From IMG/VR virus record IMGVR_UViG_3300024346_000296, positions 1 to 32,371 of that record: DNA of 32,371 nucleotides. One strand, given 5' to 3'. The DNA comes from a virus. Of the stretch, positions 17,748-32,371 are shown in pieces. Position 1 is the stretch's first letter, and each line of letters opens with the position of its first letter. Both the position numbers and the translations under genes were made by a program. The notes under the pieces were generated by a model that had not been told where the DNA came from, searched no databases, and saw nothing but the letters and a program-made list of their open reading frames with translations.

Positions 17748-18622
17748 AGTAAATTTTTTAGTCTTGTTCCGGCAGCCAATATATTATGTTTTTGAAAGAA
17801 TCCGTTGTGATGTTCTTTTCGAATCATTTCAAAATTATCGTTTTCAATTATGTTAAAGATATTATGAAATTTGATTGGATCATTTGCAATGACAAAATTA
17901 TGTTGTCCGTAAGCATCTTGATAAGCAGCTTCGTTCACATTGTTTGTGACAACCAGGCAACCAAGCGCCGTCGCTTCGAATGCCGTCACTCCAAAACAAC
18001 CGTAAGGATTGCCATTCATAATCGGCGAAAACAATTCGATATAAATGTCACATCGAGCGATTCGATTCAAATTTTCTTGATGCGACAATCTTGATTCGCT
18101 AATCACAAATTCAAATTTATCTTTGAACGGTTCAAGCATCTTATAAATCTTGTCCGTTCCTTTGACGATTGGATTCGAAGGAAAGTGACCAACAACCAAT
18201 TTTGATTTTCGTTCGGTTTGTTCCGCTTTGACATACGAATAATGCGGGGCAATATAAGTGAAATCTTTGTTGTGCAATAAAAATTCACATTGATCCGTGA
18301 AAATTCGTTGTCCTTCAAAAATAGAATCGTATCGTTGTTTGTTGTTCCGGTATCTTGTTCCGGTGTGATAAATTATTTTGTTCGGATGACTGGCGACCGC
18401 TTGAAAGATATTTGCATCCGAATGAAAGATTTGAATCACATCGAAATTCTTATATTGTTTCAAAACATCGGCCATTGTCTTTTGTTCCGATTGCGATTCA
18501 TAATTGAAGACGTGACGATGAAACGACCAATCGACGCAATCAACTCCGACCGCTCGAAGTGAATTCGCGTTTTCGTGCGCCATGTTGGCGAAGTCCATGT
18601 TTGATAAATTTAAAACGCGCAT
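17744..18622 (-). CDS. GT4-like glycosyltransferase (GT-B fold)
   Basis: This 292-aa protein begins MRVLNLSNMDFANMAHENAN and has a Rossmann-like N-terminal half (VIQIFHSD, IIYHTGTRY). The C-terminal half has the GT-B donor-site signature GNPYGCFGVTAFEATALGCL followed by VVTNNVNEA, where the E near residue 231 contacts the nucleotide sugar. It is a compact member at 292 aa, and the N-terminal domain is short. It is paired with a GT2 enzyme and a HAD protein, so a small glycan pathway is likely. The start follows a 35-codon membrane microprotein with a 13-nt overlap. Confidence 0.82.
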   Translation of the reverse strand: MRVLNLSNMDFANMAHENANSLRAVGVDCVDWSFHRHVFNYESQSEQKTMADVLKQYKNFDVIQIFHSDANIFQAVASHPNKIIYHTGTRYRNNKQRYDSIFEGQRIFTDQCEFLLHNKDFTYIAPHYSYVKAEQTERKSKLVVGHFPSNPIVKGTDKIYKMLEPFKDKFEFVISESRLSHQENLNRIARCDIYIELFSPIMNGNPYGCFGVTAFEATALGCLVVTNNVNEAAYQDAYGQHNFVIANDPIKFHNIFNIIENDNFEMIRKEHHNGFFQKHNILAAGTRLKNLL

Positions 18623-19726: not shown

Positions 19727-19927
19727 CTAAATTATAAAAAAATCGAACCATTTAACAAAAAAGATTTGTCCGACTGGTTTATTATTTAGAAACCGGTGCA
19801 TCATTGCATAAGAAACGCCAATGTCTTCGGCCAAATGTTTCATCTTATATCGCTTGGTAATTTTGTCCCTGGTCATTTTCAACATGAAGTCAACCAAGGT
19901 TTCACCATTAGAAAGGTAGATCGTCAT
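19727..19927 (-). CDS. Small helix-turn-helix DNA-binding protein, 66 aa
   Basis: The start at 19927 (MTIYLSNGETLVDFMLKMTR) overlaps the end of the OB-fold gene by 20 bases; the longer frame to 19972 is less likely. MKHLAEDIGVSYAMMHRFLN is a clear Cro/C1-like or phage-regulator HTH with a short C-terminal tail. Position at the end of the recombination operon and just before the sigma-like gene suggests a regulator of the early-to-late switch. Confidence 0.68.
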   Translation of the reverse strand: MTIYLSNGETLVDFMLKMTRDKITKRYKMKHLAEDIGVSYAMMHRFLNNKPVGQIFFVKWFDFFII

Positions 19928-20228
19928 CGATTTCATTGCGAATGTCGTTTTTAGTTTCGTTTGAAATATCAATCTTTATGTTCCAACCTTCAAGGCGTGT
20001 GAAATACTTTCCATTCCATTCCCGGCCACGAATGTTGAATCCGATTTGAACTTGGTCACCGACCTTGCATTCATCAAGCAATTGACATTTGTCTTGACTA
20101 AATTCCAACATAACTTGTTGAGGATATTTGTCATCCGTTTCGATTACGATTTCGCGCTTTGCGAATTTCTCGGTGATTTGTGTTGTCTCGGTGACAACCA
20201 CCACTTTTCCTTCGATAGTGTAATTCAT
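19908..20228 (-). CDS. OB-fold ssDNA-binding protein (DUF3127-like) with SSB-type acidic tail
   Basis: This 106-aa protein has five predicted strands of an OB fold: NYTIEGKVVVVTETTQITEK, KREIVIETDD, QQVMLEFSQDK, VGDQVQIGFNIRGREWNGKY, and FTRLEGWNIK. The GREWNGKYFT motif is typical of the Bacteroidetes DUF3127 family. The C-terminus ends in DIRNEIDDDLPF, matching the acidic tip by which bacterial SSB recruits partner proteins. It follows the annealing protein and exonuclease genes in the same transcription unit, so it is the likely ssDNA-binding partner of phage replication and recombination. The acidic tip is seen directly; its role is inferred. Confidence 0.8.
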   Translation of the reverse strand: MNYTIEGKVVVVTETTQITEKFAKREIVIETDDKYPQQVMLEFSQDKCQLLDECKVGDQVQIGFNIRGREWNGKYFTRLEGWNIKIDISNETKNDIRNEIDDDLPF

Positions 20229-20326
20229 TTTTTTCTATTAAAATATTCGTGCAACCAAAAGCCGAGTGCGAGCCAACCGACAACCATTGCCGGAATCATT
20301 AAAATTACATAGATTGTTGTAAGCAT
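20225..20326 (-). CDS. Single-pass membrane microprotein, 33 aa
   Basis: It starts one base after the exonuclease stop, and its TGA overlaps the next gene's ATG (ATGA). The product MLTTIYVILMIPAMVVGWLA and then LGFWLHEYFNRKK is one membrane helix with a short basic cytoplasmic tail. Precise packing between two genes strongly supports translation. The function is unknown. Confidence 0.65.
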   Translation of the reverse strand: MLTTIYVILMIPAMVVGWLALGFWLHEYFNRKK

Positions 20327-20327
20327 G

Positions 20328-20948
20328 TTATTTAGAATTTAATTGATTAATATATTGTGAATAATATTCATTAGCGAAAATCAGTTTTTCACGAATCAAT
20401 TGTTCCTTTTCCAAGTCACGTTCGTAAATTACCGAAGTGATTCGCTTTTCCGGTGCAATGTGATCCACGCGATGAATGTCGATTTGTTCCCATTGCGACA
20501 AGAATTCATCTTTCGTTGTGACCATACAAAAAACAAGTTCAAAGATTTCGCGTTCGTAAAGCATCAAGTACGCGCGACCTTGCCATTCATATTCGTTGTC
20601 GTGCGCTTCGCCTGGCGTTGCCGGCCAAGTTTCCAAATTCCAAGATGTCTTGATATCGATTACACGGTCTTCGGCCAAGATATCACATTCACCGGTCAAA
20701 TATTCATCTTGAAGTCGAACATCGTTCTTTTTATAATTAGTGAACCGTACTGAATTCAACAAATCGATTGAATCTTGTTCCTGGTCTTTTCCCTTGTTGA
20801 TATACTTGTTGTCAAGTTCAACCCGGTAACCGAAATAATCTTGCTTTGCAACCTGGCGAATATAAGTTTTCGCGCCTTGACTTAAATTTTCGCCTTTTGA
20901 TTTCGGCGTTGTCATCAACTTTCCCAATGACGAAGGATGCCATTTCAT
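20328..20948 (-). CDS. YqaJ/lambda-Exo-like 5'-3' exonuclease
   Basis: This 206-aa protein is a PD-(D/E)XK nuclease of the YqaJ type. Active-site parts are visible: GKDQEQDSID (glutamate on the first helix, near residue 57), LTGECDIL (G-x-x-D, near 91), VIDIKTSW (D-x-K near 98-100), and YEWQGRAYLML (the Gln/Tyr motif). It trims dsDNA ends to leave 3' single strands for the annealing protein. It is encoded immediately after the ERF gene with an ATGA overlap, the classic exonuclease plus annealase pair. Confidence 0.88.
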   Translation of the reverse strand: MKWHPSSLGKLMTTPKSKGENLSQGAKTYIRQVAKQDYFGYRVELDNKYINKGKDQEQDSIDLLNSVRFTNYKKNDVRLQDEYLTGECDILAEDRVIDIKTSWNLETWPATPGEAHDNEYEWQGRAYLMLYEREIFELVFCMVTTKDEFLSQWEQIDIHRVDHIAPEKRITSVIYERDLEKEQLIREKLIFANEYYSQYINQLNSK

Positions 20949-21490
20949 AATTCAATCGCTTTTAATTGAACATCCGTCAATGAATAAGTTGACTTCAATT
21001 GTTCAACGGTGAATTCTTTTTTCGATATTGCAAGCAAAGCTTTTTCAAATCGTTCCGTAGTGATTGCCGGTTTGTTTTTTGGCGCTGCTGCTGCCGTTTG
21101 TCCGTCGTCGTCAATAGATTGTAACGCAAGCATTGATTGAAGCGTTCCACGACGAAAATAAGTAATCGCCGAAAGTATCTTTTGCGGATCGGTTATCATT
21201 GGAAGTCGCATCCAAGATTCAACCATTTCACCGGTTTCGATGTCCACGATTTGTGTCATGACAACATCGTCCTTGATTGGTTGTAATAAGACAAGGCCAT
21301 TTTCCCAAAGAACTGGTTCAACCGTTTCAAGCAAAGCATTGATGTCGGAATAGTTCTTTTTAAAATGTGGATTCGTTGCGTTCTTCGCTACCTTTCCAAT
21401 TGATTGTTTTGCGCAATGTAATCGCGCATAAATGCCAATCGGTTTGATTGGTTTGACCGGTGTTTTCACCGCCGTTTGTTTTGCATCCAT
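20945..21490 (-). CDS. ERF-family single-strand annealing protein
   Basis: This 181-aa protein shows the ERF signature: GKVAKNATNPHFKKNYSDIN near the N-terminus, ALLETVEPVLWENGLVLLQP in the core, the strand MTQIVDIETGEMVESWMRLP, and DPQKILSAITYFRRGTLQSM, which binds and anneals ssDNA. A flexible QTAAAAPKNKP linker leads to a small helical C-terminal module (FEKALLAISKKEFTVEQL). With the adjoining exonuclease and OB-fold protein it forms a recombination module. It has its own promoter (21516-21546) and 5' leader. Confidence 0.87.
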   Translation of the reverse strand: MDAKQTAVKTPVKPIKPIGIYARLHCAKQSIGKVAKNATNPHFKKNYSDINALLETVEPVLWENGLVLLQPIKDDVVMTQIVDIETGEMVESWMRLPMITDPQKILSAITYFRRGTLQSMLALQSIDDDGQTAAAAPKNKPAITTERFEKALLAISKKEFTVEQLKSTYSLTDVQLKAIEL

Positions 21491-22433: not shown

Positions 22434-22898
22434 TTAAAATTTATTTAGTTTGTTTTTATGAAGAAAATAACCTTCGCCATGTCCCAAATCTTTTATATTT
22501 TTTTCATTAATAAATTCGTCCTTGTCAATCCAACCAACAAATTCAACCACGTTTTTTTCAATATAAGACAAAACATAAATGTCAACGTCGTTATTGTTTT
22601 TCAAGGTCGCAAGTAAATTTCCATTTTTATTGGTGGTTGATTTGATATCGTATCTTTTTCCGTTCTTTGTTTTTCCGTCAAAGCTTCCACTTCGCGAAGA
22701 CAAGTTGAAATCCGGGAATAAATTAAATTTTTTACAAAACGCAAATTCAGCAATAAAACCTTGAATGTTAATTTCTTCGTCGTCTAAATTTGACATCCTT
22801 GCATTTTGAACGTTATTGTTTATATTCTCGGAATTTCTTTTTTTGCCAATAAAATGACACAATTTCATTTCAAATTCATTCAATTCTATTTTTATCAT
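22434..22898 (-). CDS. PD-(D/E)XK-like nuclease, phage type
   Basis: This 154-aa protein contains IQGFIAEFAFCKKFNLFPDF (an E on the first helix), SGSFDGKTKNGKRYDIKSTT (the D and the I-K-S lysine of the nuclease core), a strand IYVLSYIE, and a terminal VEFVGWIDKDEF. This is the pattern of a phage PD-(D/E)XK family that binds or cuts DNA during replication. It overlaps the helicase stop (22895) by 4 bases. The specificity is not clear. Confidence 0.68.
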   Translation of the reverse strand: MIKIELNEFEMKLCHFIGKKRNSENINNNVQNARMSNLDDEEINIQGFIAEFAFCKKFNLFPDFNLSSRSGSFDGKTKNGKRYDIKSTTNKNGNLLATLKNNNDVDIYVLSYIEKNVVEFVGWIDKDEFINEKNIKDLGHGEGYFLHKNKLNKF

Positions 22899-25297
22899 TT
22901 TACTTGTTTATTAATTTCGTCCCAAATATCGCCTTCATTTGTGACCGATTGGTCATCAATCAATTCAAAGTATCGGCCGCCGTGATCGCGTTCTTTTCTT
23001 AAATCTAATTTTTTAAACTTCGCATATTCCGAAATCCATTTCAAATATCTTCGCGATTCAAGTTCTTTCCAACCGTTCGTTTCTTGTTGGAACAATTGGA
23101 TTGAAGCGTTGTTGTAATGGCGAATATTGGATTCGATGTGGCCGTCGTTCACGAAGTCAAAGAAATCTTTGCTTGTCGCCTGGATGAATCTTTTCGAATC
23201 GGCGTTGATTGATATTGATTGTTTCAATCCGTACTTTAAAAACATTTGAAGATTCCGGATCATGTAATTGTCAAACCTTGACCAGTCATCAACCGACCAG
23301 GAATCAAACAACAAACGACCGTATAATTCAAGCGGCGATTTCTTCGCGTTGAAATATTGAAAGAATTCCAATTCGTGGCGTCTTCGGTCGTGACTTGATC
23401 CAGCGCCGGCAATAACATAATTCGTTGTAATAATTATTTTCGGCGACCTTTCAAATGGAATAAATATTTCATCCTTGTTTTTTCGGTTGACGGTTATTCC
23501 TTCCGATATCAAAGAAAATAATTGCTCAAAGTCAAAGTTCTTTTTCACGTCGTCGAACGCCAGGACTTGCGTATCTAAATTAACGCGTTGATAAACGAAG
23601 TCGCCTTTCGAATTGAAAGCTTTGCCGTCAATCTTTACAATCTTTCGAATATAAGACAAGGCCGTCAACATCAATGACTTTCCAGAACCGCCGTTGGCAT
23701 TGTCGTCGATTTCTTGGTCATTGAAAATAATTGCCTTTTGATCGGTCTTATCTTTGAACGTGTGCAATAAATATCCAAGCGTTGATTCAAGCGCCGTTAT
23801 TCGTTCCGGATTTTCGGCCGATACCTTTGAAATCAAATCTTGAAAGTCATTATTGTATTCATCAACTGGAATGAAGTCACGGTCTAAAATTTGATTTTCC
23901 CAAATATATCCTTCGACATCAATATACGATTGAAGAACGACGGAATTCTTGGTCACTTTTGCGACGCCATTTCGAAACGGAATCAATGAAATATCTTTTG
24001 TGTCTTGTAGCATCTTCAATCCAATCGAATCAATCATGTTTAAATGATTCTCGTTGAATAAGTAAACTGATTTCGAACAATAGTTCCAAACTTTTATTTC
24101 ACCGCGTGACATCAAGAATTGAAGAACGAAGTCTTTTATTTGATCGGCCGATGAAAGTCGAACTTTATTTTCTTGAACTCGGACAAATGTTGGTTTTTCA
24201 GCATTTTCCGGATAATACTTATTGAATCCATTCTTGACCAAAAATTCAGCATATTTCAACGGTTCAATTGTAATTGATTCGCCGGTCTTTTTTTGTTCAA
24301 TTATCCAAAAGATATCTTCGGAAGTTGCAAGATCCGTTTTGATATCGTCGATGACATCTTCATCAACATTCAATTGCTTTTTAATGTCGCGCAAATTTAC
24401 GCCTTGTTTCAATTTCAATTTAACTTTTTGAACCAAATCGACATTCTCAAAATATTTTATTCCTGGCGATGCTTTTTTGTACGCGCTTTTAATTGTCAAT
24501 ACCAATTCCGACAAAGTAAACGATTCGGATATGAAATTGGCCTTCAAATAATATTCGGCGGTATCTTTTGAAATATTGTATTCGCAAAAGCATGCAGCCA
24601 CCTTAAAAATATAAGCGTTTCTTGATCCTTCAATAAATGAACAACCAAAATCAAATTTCATTATTCGGTCAATGATTTTATCTTCGTCGGTCAATATGCA
24701 AGTTGGCGCTTTTTCAGTGAAGTCGAATCCTTTTTCTTGTTCGATGTCGGTGAATTCTTGACAAAATTCGTTGATGTAAGCTTGCGGATCAAATGATTCA
24801 AAACATACCCTTGAAACGTTGCATGAAGTTTTATCAAAGTAGTCACTTTGTATGTACTTTTCGAACGATTGGAATCTTCGTTTATGTTCGTCCTTGGTTG
24901 ATTTTGGAATCTTAATAACTACCTTCAATCCTTTTCCACCTGGCGAAGTGAATACCAAATAAACAAACGGACAATTTTGCAATTTTTGCCGTTCGTTATC
25001 CATTGTGACGGCATCCGGATAATCGTCGAAATCCAAAACACAAAGGCCGGAATGTTCAACAAGGCCGTTGTCGTTTCGTTCGTTGAATGTTCCGTTGAAC
25101 ATAATGGCCAATAGTGAATTTTTCATCGCGCGATGTTCTTCGGAATTTTCATCCATTGCACGAAGACGGTCAATCTTTTTATTTAGATCGGAATAACCGT
25201 TCTTTATTCGTTCGTAAACATCAAGAATCGTCAAAGTATATGGCGTTTCTTTGCTATTAAATAAACTTTTAAAGACGGAAAGTTTTGGAATGTTCAT
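22895..25297 (-). CDS. Primase-helicase (BT4734-like N-terminus and SF3-type helicase)
   Basis: This 800-aa protein has an N-terminal prim-pol-like part (LCVLDFDDYPD near residue 86, FTSPGGKGLKVVIKIP near 116, NVSRVCFESFDP near 160), as in VirE/BT4734 proteins. The middle is helical. The C-terminal ATPase has Walker A GGSGKS (about 535), Walker B VLAFDD (about 575) and KIIITTNYV (about 619). It should unwind origin DNA and lay primers. It follows a promoter and a structured leader (25309-25384) behind the repeat array, which suggests the array controls or feeds this gene. It starts at ATG 25297 with a TAAACATG leader. Confidence 0.9.
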   Translation of the reverse strand: MNIPKLSVFKSLFNSKETPYTLTILDVYERIKNGYSDLNKKIDRLRAMDENSEEHRAMKNSLLAIMFNGTFNERNDNGLVEHSGLCVLDFDDYPDAVTMDNERQKLQNCPFVYLVFTSPGGKGLKVVIKIPKSTKDEHKRRFQSFEKYIQSDYFDKTSCNVSRVCFESFDPQAYINEFCQEFTDIEQEKGFDFTEKAPTCILTDEDKIIDRIMKFDFGCSFIEGSRNAYIFKVAACFCEYNISKDTAEYYLKANFISESFTLSELVLTIKSAYKKASPGIKYFENVDLVQKVKLKLKQGVNLRDIKKQLNVDEDVIDDIKTDLATSEDIFWIIEQKKTGESITIEPLKYAEFLVKNGFNKYYPENAEKPTFVRVQENKVRLSSADQIKDFVLQFLMSRGEIKVWNYCSKSVYLFNENHLNMIDSIGLKMLQDTKDISLIPFRNGVAKVTKNSVVLQSYIDVEGYIWENQILDRDFIPVDEYNNDFQDLISKVSAENPERITALESTLGYLLHTFKDKTDQKAIIFNDQEIDDNANGGSGKSLMLTALSYIRKIVKIDGKAFNSKGDFVYQRVNLDTQVLAFDDVKKNFDFEQLFSLISEGITVNRKNKDEIFIPFERSPKIIITTNYVIAGAGSSHDRRRHELEFFQYFNAKKSPLELYGRLLFDSWSVDDWSRFDNYMIRNLQMFLKYGLKQSISINADSKRFIQATSKDFFDFVNDGHIESNIRHYNNASIQLFQQETNGWKELESRRYLKWISEYAKFKKLDLRKERDHGGRYFELIDDQSVTNEGDIWDEINKQVK

Positions 25298-25308
25298 GTT
25301 TAGTCATT

Positions 25309-25384
25309 AAAAAAAGCCAAGAACCTTTCCCGGATGCAGTCGGTACTCGGTTAATGGCCTTAAAAATTTTGTTTGCTGCATCTA
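25309..25384 (-). ncRNA. Structured leader or small RNA with terminator-like end
   Basis: From about 25384 the minus-strand RNA contains a hairpin with arms at 25350-25342 and 25325-25317. The 9-position stem has one G-U pair and one U-U mismatch, with a 16-nt loop. A U7 run follows at 25315-25309. The loop holds CTGCATC (25339-25333), complementary to GATGCAG at 25382-25376 in the 5' part. A 7-bp pseudoknot or a competing fold is therefore possible. It could be an attenuator for the primase-helicase gene or an independent RNA of about 75 nt. Confidence 0.6.
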
Positions 25385-25390
25385 ACTTCG

Positions 25391-25423
25391 TAAAGGTAAT
25401 TAAAATTTTCAATAATTTGCAAA
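25391..25423 (-). promoter_or_regulatory. Promoter for leader RNA / primase-helicase
   Basis: On the minus strand a TTTG box (25423-25420) is followed after 21 bases by TACCTTTA (25398-25391), one mismatch from the Bacteroidetes -7 consensus TAnnTTTG. The predicted start near 25384 precedes the helicase start codon by about 87 bases. It lies just downstream of the GTGACGAT array. Confidence 0.6.
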
Positions 25424-25434
25424 TATGTTTAAAA

Positions 25435-25704
25435 CGTGACGATAATGTTCATTTCGTGACGATAAATCTTGTATCGTCACGTTTATTGTCACGGCTAATA
25501 ATCAACCTCACATTGACTTTCCGACCGAGCGTGACGATGTGACGATAAATTTCAAAAAAATTGAGATAAAAAACCACTTTTTCAATTTTAATAGAATCTC
25601 TCATTGTTTTGCTATCGTCACCGTCACGCTTTGACCTTGTTTTGTTACTGGAATTGACTTTCAAGCCGTGACAATGGATGTTTGTATCGTCACGCATCGT
25701 CACG
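25435..25704. repeat. Array of GTGACGAT repeats (iterons), candidate origin or operator
   Basis: About 11 copies of (C)GTGACGAT(A) or its reverse complement lie within 270 bp. Plus-orientation copies are at 25435, 25455, 25530 and 25539. Reverse copies are at 25472, 25613, 25685 and 25695. Degenerate copies are at 25486, 25622 and 25666. Two copies (25531-25538, 25539-25546) are perfectly tandem. The gap 25549-25612 is very AT-rich with an 8-bp inverted repeat (25557-25564 and 25582-25589). The last copies lie inside the end of the DnaA-like gene. This resembles a phage/plasmid origin or a multi-site operator. Confidence 0.8.
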
Positions 25705-26070
25705 CGTATAAATGTTTTGATTGATTCGGCGCTTAATTTTGCATAAATCTTGAAAATTCTTTGCGTTTTCAACATCTTCAATCAAATTTCTTTTCTCAAA
25801 AAACAAAGTTTTGTCATTGAATTCCTGGAATAAATCTTTGGTATGCAACAAATAAAATTCATCATTTTGACTTTCAAAAATTTCCGCTTGTTTGATTCCG
25901 TGAATAATTGTGGCGTGATGCTTGTTAAAAATTTCAGCAATTTCACGCAAATAAAATTTTTGCTTTCTTAAATAGCAATAAAAAAACCACCTTCTATAAA
26001 CTTTTTCCGGCCGATTACAATTTTTTTTCAATTGTTCATCTTCAATAATTTGTTTAATTCTTTGTATCAT
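25690..26070 (-). CDS. DnaA domain IV-like DNA-binding protein, candidate replication initiator
   Basis: This 126-aa protein has a core KQKFYLREIAEIFNKHHATI followed by IHGIKQAEIF, matching the DnaA signature (F-x-K/R-x-H-A/S-T-I/V-I-x-x-x-x-K). No ATPase domain is present; it consists of an HTH plus a helical tail. In phages such proteins bind origin sequences and recruit replication proteins. Its gene runs directly into the GTGACGAT array and is followed by the primase-helicase gene, so it is the natural candidate to bind the repeats. It overlaps the upstream microprotein stop by ATGA. It could equally act as a transcription regulator of the region. Confidence 0.78.
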   Translation of the reverse strand: MIQRIKQIIEDEQLKKNCNRPEKVYRRWFFYCYLRKQKFYLREIAEIFNKHHATIIHGIKQAEIFESQNDEFYLLHTKDLFQEFNDKTLFFEKRNLIEDVENAKNFQDLCKIKRRINQNIYTRDDA

Positions 26071-31816: not shown

Positions 31817-32281
31817 TTAATTGTTCTCAAAATCGTAATTATCGTAAGGAATTTCGCACCAATTTTCGTAATCGTAAATGTTCAAGGCCATGTTCATCGT
31901 CCAACCGGCCGTCACGTCGTGTGAACGGTTAATAAATGGCGTCGTTGAAATCGTTCCTTGAATATCCAAGAATTCTTCAAAGCGCCATTGTTTGAAAGTG
32001 ACATGAATATCTTTACAAATGGATAAGCAATCGGAATGAATTTCATCGATTTGTCGATATTCTTGAAGATTGTACTTATCAGCAATTGAAATAATGCAAT
32101 TCACTCCGACAAAATTGTCACCAATCGTTCCAGGTTGCAAAGTGACAATCATTATTGGAAAGCTTACGGCGTCGCGTGAAACGGCATCGATAAAATCACC
32201 AAAAAAGAAATCATTTATTTGACGGTGTTCCGTCGCTATTATTTCGAATTCCCTTTTTAACTGGTTGATTGTTTTTTCCAT
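31817..32281 (-). CDS. Tail completion-like/neck protein
   Basis: This 154-aa protein begins MEKTINQLKREFEIIATEHR, followed by QINDFFFGDFIDAVSRDAVS and FPIMIVTLQP, and ends with GWTMNMALNIYDYENWCEIP. This pattern is common in Bacteroidetes phages for the protein following the connector, probably a neck or tail terminator subunit of the gpU kind. The C-terminal WCEIP closes a beta-rich fold. Its first 40 codons are duplicated by the terminal repeat at window position 1-122. Confidence 0.72.
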   Translation of the reverse strand: MEKTINQLKREFEIIATEHRQINDFFFGDFIDAVSRDAVSFPIMIVTLQPGTIGDNFVGVNCIISIADKYNLQEYRQIDEIHSDCLSICKDIHVTFKQWRFEEFLDIQGTISTTPFINRSHDVTAGWTMNMALNIYDYENWCEIPYDNYDFENN

Positions 32282-32371
32282 TTTTTAAATATATTTTTAG
32301 CTTTTCGATTTGTTCCTTTGAAGCTTTGAATTTCATATAATAAAATTTATCGGCGTATATCCGTTTCGATC
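32160..32371. repeat. Right copy of the 212-bp terminal direct repeat
   Basis: Repeats bases 1-212 with T at 32286 in place of C at 127. It includes the start of the tail completion-like gene, a copy of the 41-codon ORF (32211-32336) and the last codons of the connector gene (32333-32371). Confidence 0.95.

Follow-up and report, generated by a model that had tools for sequence, protein, structure and literature searches.

The short repeats upstream of the primase-helicase gene of this phage are, with a probability of about two in three, iterons of the encoded primase-helicase itself, read by its C-terminal winged helix, with origin start and leader control as proposed below. They lie in a stretch of 32,371 nucleotides (IMG/VR record IMGVR_UViG_3300024346_000296), hereafter the window, and on this reading the probable initiator is the primase-helicase instead of a neighboring DnaA-like protein, which would have been the obvious candidate. 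The array, its conservation, its co-segregation with the primase gene, a correlation between one residue and one motif base, and covariation in the leader RNA are direct observations. Judged from these, the primase-helicase is likely to bind the array; origin function, although probable, is less sure than binding, since nearly the same conservation would be expected of an operator. The locus contains the following features.

22895..25297, minus strand: gene for a PrimPol-type primase / SF3-like helicase of 800 aa with a predicted C-terminal winged helix
22943..23209, minus strand: codons for residues 697-785, the predicted C-terminal winged helix (pLDDT about 80-87 along most of this stretch)
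22982..22984, minus strand: codon of His772, in the predicted wing
25309..25382, minus strand: leader RNA, with P1a (GATGCAG), a P2/P3/P4 hairpin, an AGUA/GAA internal loop and then U7
25391..25423, minus strand: what we take, from the generally known consensus, to be a Bacteroidetes-type promoter (TTTG at 25420-25423, a 21-bp spacer and the -7 box TACCTTTA at 25391-25398)
25435..25705, both strands (5 plus, 6 minus): repeat array of 11 GTGACGAT-type copies, 8 exact and 3 with one mismatch
25436+, 25456+, 25473-, 25531+, 25539+, 25614-, 25686-, 25696-: exact GTGACGAT copies
25485-, 25620-, 25668+: one-mismatch GTGACGAT copies
25485..25536: core module B, two inverted repeats with a 36-bp spacer (25494-25529) containing the conserved AAAGTCAAT
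25547..25613: AT-rich gap between the two repeat clusters, 79% AT, the proposed unwinding element
25621..25673: module A, the second copy, with a 38-bp spacer likewise containing AAAGTCAAT
25690..26070, minus strand: gene for a DnaA-domain-IV-like protein of 126 aa, without ATPase, exchangeable between relatives

The array and the DnaA-like gene overlap at the 3' end of the latter, and the primase-helicase gene lies downstream. An earlier note on this DNA had described about 11 repeats in both orientations, which was borne out (8 exact and 3 near-exact copies, 5 on the plus and 6 on the minus strand). With up to one mismatch, GTGACGAT has 34 matches in the whole 32-kb window compared to 27 expected, 11 of which fall inside the 268-bp array (25436-25703), and the sole exact copy outside the array within the window is at 18512. 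In a uniform motif search, the array had a Poisson score (minus log10) of 16.4, compared to a maximum of 5.1 for shuffled gaps. It consists of two modules, each an inverted repeat pair with a AAAGTCAAT-bearing spacer, which flank the AT-rich gap. The 64-bp core of this gap, correctly recognized as AT-rich before, belongs to the top 1.4% of windows. Within it, the 8-bp inverted repeat reported earlier (AAAATTGA/TCAATTTT) is present, but the relatives L012 and L075 do not keep it. Across five primase clades, 50 of 98 loci have an inverted-repeat spacer of exactly 36 bp; AAAGTCAAT stands close to one of its ends, or is replaced by its reverse complement in five loci of clade P2 (the core is flipped in L038, L041, L046, L054, and L067). 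The AAAGTCAAT core word occurs 1.8 times per kb in primase gaps vs. 0.47 in the background, and is not enriched around DnaA-like genes without this primase (0.25 per kb). In the relatives, the promoter directly follows the array and the full TAnnTTTG element is frequent, and the promoter predicted for the window stands, with the Bacteroidetes-type -7 box on the minus strand. The description of the locus as a compact site of replication control, with a repeat array that is conserved, is supported. The suggested resemblance of the repeats to a DnaA box found no support (TTWTNCACA has no match in the array and only two elsewhere, far away). The cumulative GC skew, proposed as a check, has no turn or extremum and gives no origin signal at the locus, being uninformative on the origin.

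The primase-helicase joins both activities in one polypeptide, and its earlier assignment was confirmed by domain matches and motifs. The N-terminus is BT4734-like/PrimPol, with PF08800 above the cut-off, PriCT_1 just below it, and a match to PrimPol_Db (E 1e-18) below the family cut-off, and the helicase part contains a Walker A motif (NGGSGKS), a Walker B motif, and SF3-like motifs, as read from the alignment. The full-length model is poor (pLDDT 51), with a weak fold search in which PrimPol domains were the best credible matches, so only the C-terminal domain is usable. In the model, residues 700-783 are well predicted; their helices and strands follow one another as in a winged helix, and residues 765-780 form a wing hairpin. 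Searched alone, this domain has no credible sequence match in PDB or Pfam, including the P4 domain and solved winged helices. Relatives of the primase in named phages share at most 39% identity, and their gene surroundings, though read, play no part in the analysis. A search of cellular genomes gave no relative. The 126-aa neighbor, previously described as a DnaA-type HTH protein lacking an ATPase, does lack an ATPase and is DnaA-domain-IV-like, with a match to Bac_DnaA_C (PF08299; E 8e-5, 23 bits) that is weak and below the Pfam cut-off of 31.5. Its model (pLDDT 85) is most similar in Foldseek to the M. tuberculosis DnaA-DBD (probability 0.93 but E 1.2), the AAA+ ATPase domain is absent, leaving the domain IV-like match alone, and no close relatives were found in named phages.

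Scans of viral contigs yielded about 100 distinct loci in which the two genes are neighbors, and in about 30 others the DnaA-like gene has another downstream gene; these relatives are metagenomic contigs, and their relatedness limits the statistics. Where this primase lies beside the DnaA-like gene, the array score exceeds the shuffled maximum in 91 of 98 loci. Most of the 29 complete gaps without this primase do not exceed this value, and five DnaD-type gaps score just 5.3-5.8. The exceptions, L139 (11.6) and L145 (5.9), both carry other PrimPol genes. In L139 (842-1176), a PrimPol-DUF3987 helicase with a C-terminal HTH is preceded by its own AGTGTGAA x10 array, making this an independent case of an array plus a primase-helicase.

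Exchanges between relatives separate the two genes further. Compared to L012, the window has a primase that is 98% identical at the amino acid level, a gap that is 88% identical at the nucleotide level, and a DnaA-like protein of only 39% amino acid identity, and the GTGACGAT array is kept. Conversely, the DnaA-like proteins of L105 and L106 are 87-88% identical to that of L029 and have the same HTH (REIGEIFNKTHATIIHS), whereas the array is GTGACGAT in L029 and CTTGCAC (= GTGCAAG) in L105 and L124, both of which have a 35%-identical primase; the gaps of L029, L105, and L106 cannot be aligned. Replication genes of another type and no comparable array are found in L106, L107, L110, L112, L117, and L122 (in L106, the downstream genes encode a DnaD-like helicase loader and then a RecA-fold helicase). 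The HTHs of L124 and L112 also belong to this identical or near-identical set. Loci with a DnaD/DnaB-type module downstream have no array but keep the leader. In a third exchange, L080 and L140 encode DnaA-like proteins of 95% amino acid identity with the same HTH and primases of ~36% identity, and their arrays differ (ATGACR vs. TGTGCAAA); identical or near-identical HTHs occur beside ATGACR arrays in L080 and L083 and beside TGTGCAAA arrays in L140 and L161. A further candidate pair, L077 and L081, in which both proteins are 98% alike and the motifs seemed different, was dropped; both fit ATGACR. The repeat is thus conserved in relatives, as the earlier note had asked, but with the primase gene and not with the DnaA-like gene.

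In 14 contigs with a DnaA-like gene ~2 kb from a primase, no array was found on either side of the DnaA-like gene. Among the most divergent primases with distant DnaA-like genes (L103-L150, L168), nine of ten have no array in the 400 bp upstream and one has a weak one, which speaks against the main reading; in the L103-L150 group the DnaA-like gene lies ~2 kb downstream of the primase, and an origin, if any, would be elsewhere. Primase residues 746-785 are 53% identical between clades P0 and P1, which both have CGTGACGAT, compared to 38-46% between the clade of the window and others, despite an overall P0/P1 primase identity equal to that of other clade comparisons. As a separate observation, L189, L205, and L231 have an HNH-endonuclease-like insert between array and primase, and the corresponding gap in L003 is ~512 bp longer, with an HNH-like insert (L003 and L189 were read by eye).

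Within the primase, the motif could be related to a single residue. With the core taken as xxTGAC and motif-class thresholds set by hand, 45 distinct loci have G at motif base 2 and 25 have A. Residue 772 is His with xGTGAC and Ser, Asn, Val, or Ala with xATGAC in all 64 loci having both data. In clade P2, His772 occurs with G at base 2 in the motifs CGTTACAAA and CGCGACAAA. A column scan, which left out L189, L205, and L231 (HNH-type inserts) and L229 (ambiguous), found disjoint residue sets between the motif classes in 3 of 775 primase columns (290, 652, and 772), of which only 772 is invariant in one class, and in none of 121 DnaA-like columns. The base-2 switch occurs between clades and also inside two of them. 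On a tree that leaves the C-terminal domain out, the base changes four times and so does the residue, and the independent residue-base pairs agree in 4 of 4 cases, the maximum possible for this set (sign test p 0.125). A parsimony count of the motif base was not used, because it gave four changes on the primase tree and the DnaA-like tree alike and did not separate them. Three further scans added new sequences, among them a new clade with Gln772 and xATGAC (6:0) in L330, L334, and L336 and His772 and xGTGAC (4:1) in L289, while L333 and L335 have His772 yet mixed motifs (2 G : 2 A). The data suggest a testable residue-to-base rule within one family, His772 with G and other residues with A; if true, a His772Ser exchange would shift the preference from CGTGACGA to CATGACGA.

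How far do these patterns exclude other binders? The earlier note had the DnaA-like protein bind the repeats, open the AT-rich gap, and load the primase-helicase. The protein adjoins the array and has a DnaA-type HTH, but identical or near-identical HTHs stand beside different arrays or none, the array is unchanged when the protein drops to 39% identity, DnaA-like genes away from the primase have no array, and no DnaA-like column splits the two motif classes, which makes this model very improbable. The note itself had named a lack of repeat conservation in relatives with the same initiator gene as speaking against its proposal, and for the DnaA-like gene this is what was found. This protein is best seen as a separate regulator of the replication cassette, one that can be exchanged and does not determine the array. 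A third factor, be it from the host (a nucleoid protein or regulator) or a different protein of the phage, is also improbable as the reader of the repeats. A further binder is suggested by the AAAGTCAAT core, which is conserved in the 36-bp spacer and inverted in some relatives, but related phages have many motif types, and the motif shifts in step with primase residue 772, inside clades too, which a host factor would leave unexplained.

An alternative that deserves more attention, albeit still unlikely, is that the array is purely an operator, as the earlier note had also considered; the primase-helicase, alone or in a complex, would bind it to shut its own promoter, with the origin elsewhere. 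The promoter directly follows the array in relatives, and the GC skew shows no origin here. However, a simple operator would not need 11 sites, arranged over 270 bp as two modules on either side of an AT-rich gap, and arrays go with primase-helicases and not with the DnaD/DnaB-type modules, which retain the leader. Finally, linkage could carry a repeat along with a neighboring gene without binding of its product; against this, the array of the window stays with the primase even though it shares sequence with the 3' end of the DnaA-like gene.

For the primase-helicase as reader of the array, we infer physical binding, melting, origin function, and attenuation as follows. Its C-terminal winged helix would read the repeats, with wing residue 772 contacting motif base 2, and the protein would assemble on the two modules around the AT-rich gap, just upstream of its own promoter. 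The DNA would then be melted at this gap, and the helicase and PrimPol domains may start replication there, in a manner similar to the alpha protein of satellite phage P4. The same binding would probably also autoregulate the promoter, and the pseudoknotted, terminator-like leader may set the amount of primase-helicase made. Such a scheme makes origin recognition in mostly uncultured phages testable, and origins could be found from sequence.

Several known systems combine parts of this arrangement. In staphylococcal islands (SaPIs), the C-terminus of the Rep protein reads two iteron sets around an AT-rich stretch. SaPI Rep-ori comprises an initiator with helicase activity plus a primase (PMC7145576); compared by description, initiator and primase are separate proteins there and one protein here. 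The closest known working scheme is that of P4 alpha, a single protein with primase, helicase, and winged-helix parts that binds the repeats of the origin, unwinds the DNA, and primes (PMC4234260). The P4 primase is of the Toprim type (PMC4234260), in contrast to the PrimPol/BT4734-like N-terminus here, the repeat sequence is different, and the repeats here immediately precede the primase gene. Given the different primase type and the lack of a sequence match between the C-terminal domain and a solved one, we do not claim membership in the P4-alpha type. The pRN1-type archaeal plasmid proteins likewise unite an archaeo-eukaryotic-type primase, a helicase, and a C-terminal winged helix (PMC4234260), but the pRN1 origin is a stem-loop without iterons (PMC4234260), unlike the iteron-like array here. 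With DnaA, the neighboring protein would share a domain-IV-like HTH, but it lacks the AAA+ domain and misses the Pfam cut-off, and the array is neither DnaA-box-like nor follows the DnaA-like gene.

The second element of the locus is the leader RNA between the promoter and the primase start codon. The terminator-like hairpin noted before the primase gene is real and is also a pseudoknot, in which the apical loop CTGCATC pairs with P1a (GATGCAG) near the 5' end of the transcript. In all 24 leaders examined, a script seeking complementarity found the four helices kept, with 9 to 13 sequence versions each, and an unguided RNAalifold run recovered P2 and P3, where 8 of 9 pairs had changed on both sides. 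Thermodynamic folding alone was not significant (z -0.57), and a descriptor search of the window coding strand gave the leader and two other matches, one inside the array, vs. 0 to 2 in shuffles.

A second leader sequence type with the same architecture precedes DnaD-type genes and HNH-type inserts; L003, L189, L205, and L231 carry this type of pseudoknotted leader. A descriptor search found it in 23 of 36 gaps compared to 0.1 expected. In 16 of these, 97.5% of cells pair and 12 of 15 pairs changed on both sides; these rows were picked for P1 and P2 complementarity, and P4, which was not requested, still pairs in 97%. The covariation score was 0.763 vs. 0.218 for shuffled (0/500) and <=0.125 for slid controls. 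A covariance model detected the second type in 20 of 70 loci, once each and in every case shortly after the DnaA-like gene or in front of the insert. Leader alignment A6 was not used for counting pairs, since it misplaced P1 and P4 between types. The leaders were not seen in several clades (P3 and most of P0). In L069-L076 and L134, another leader type was observed, whose terminator loop ACTGTG can pair with CACAGT downstream of the U tract and not with the 5' end.

Rfam contains no leader match above the gathering score and nothing relevant at E <= 5. P4 is a phage attenuator example, with leader control of its replication operon. Like phage attenuator leaders, the RNA described here is a terminator-like structure ahead of a replication gene; unlike them, it has a pseudoknot between terminator loop and 5' end, and no Rfam match. 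We rate the chances as roughly even that it represents an undescribed regulatory RNA class, a terminator with loop-5' end pairing that would meter initiator synthesis ahead of PrimPol-helicase/iteron or DnaD/DnaB-type genes in many Bacteroidetes phages, and that it forms an undescribed replication-control cassette together with the iteron-reading PrimPol-helicase. A covarying pseudoknotted leader that is absent from Rfam points to an unstudied control layer over phage replication genes.

The phage probably infects Bacteroidetes, because of the promoter type, the domain families, and weak primase matches in Flavobacterium, Polaribacter, and Bacteroides phages. The window ends (1-212 and 32160-32371) overlap with 211 of 212 identical positions and one C/T difference, which reflects either a circular assembly or a direct terminal repeat. 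In addition, a recombination cassette at 19908-21490 on the minus strand encodes an ERF-type annealing protein, an exonuclease, and a single-strand binding protein.
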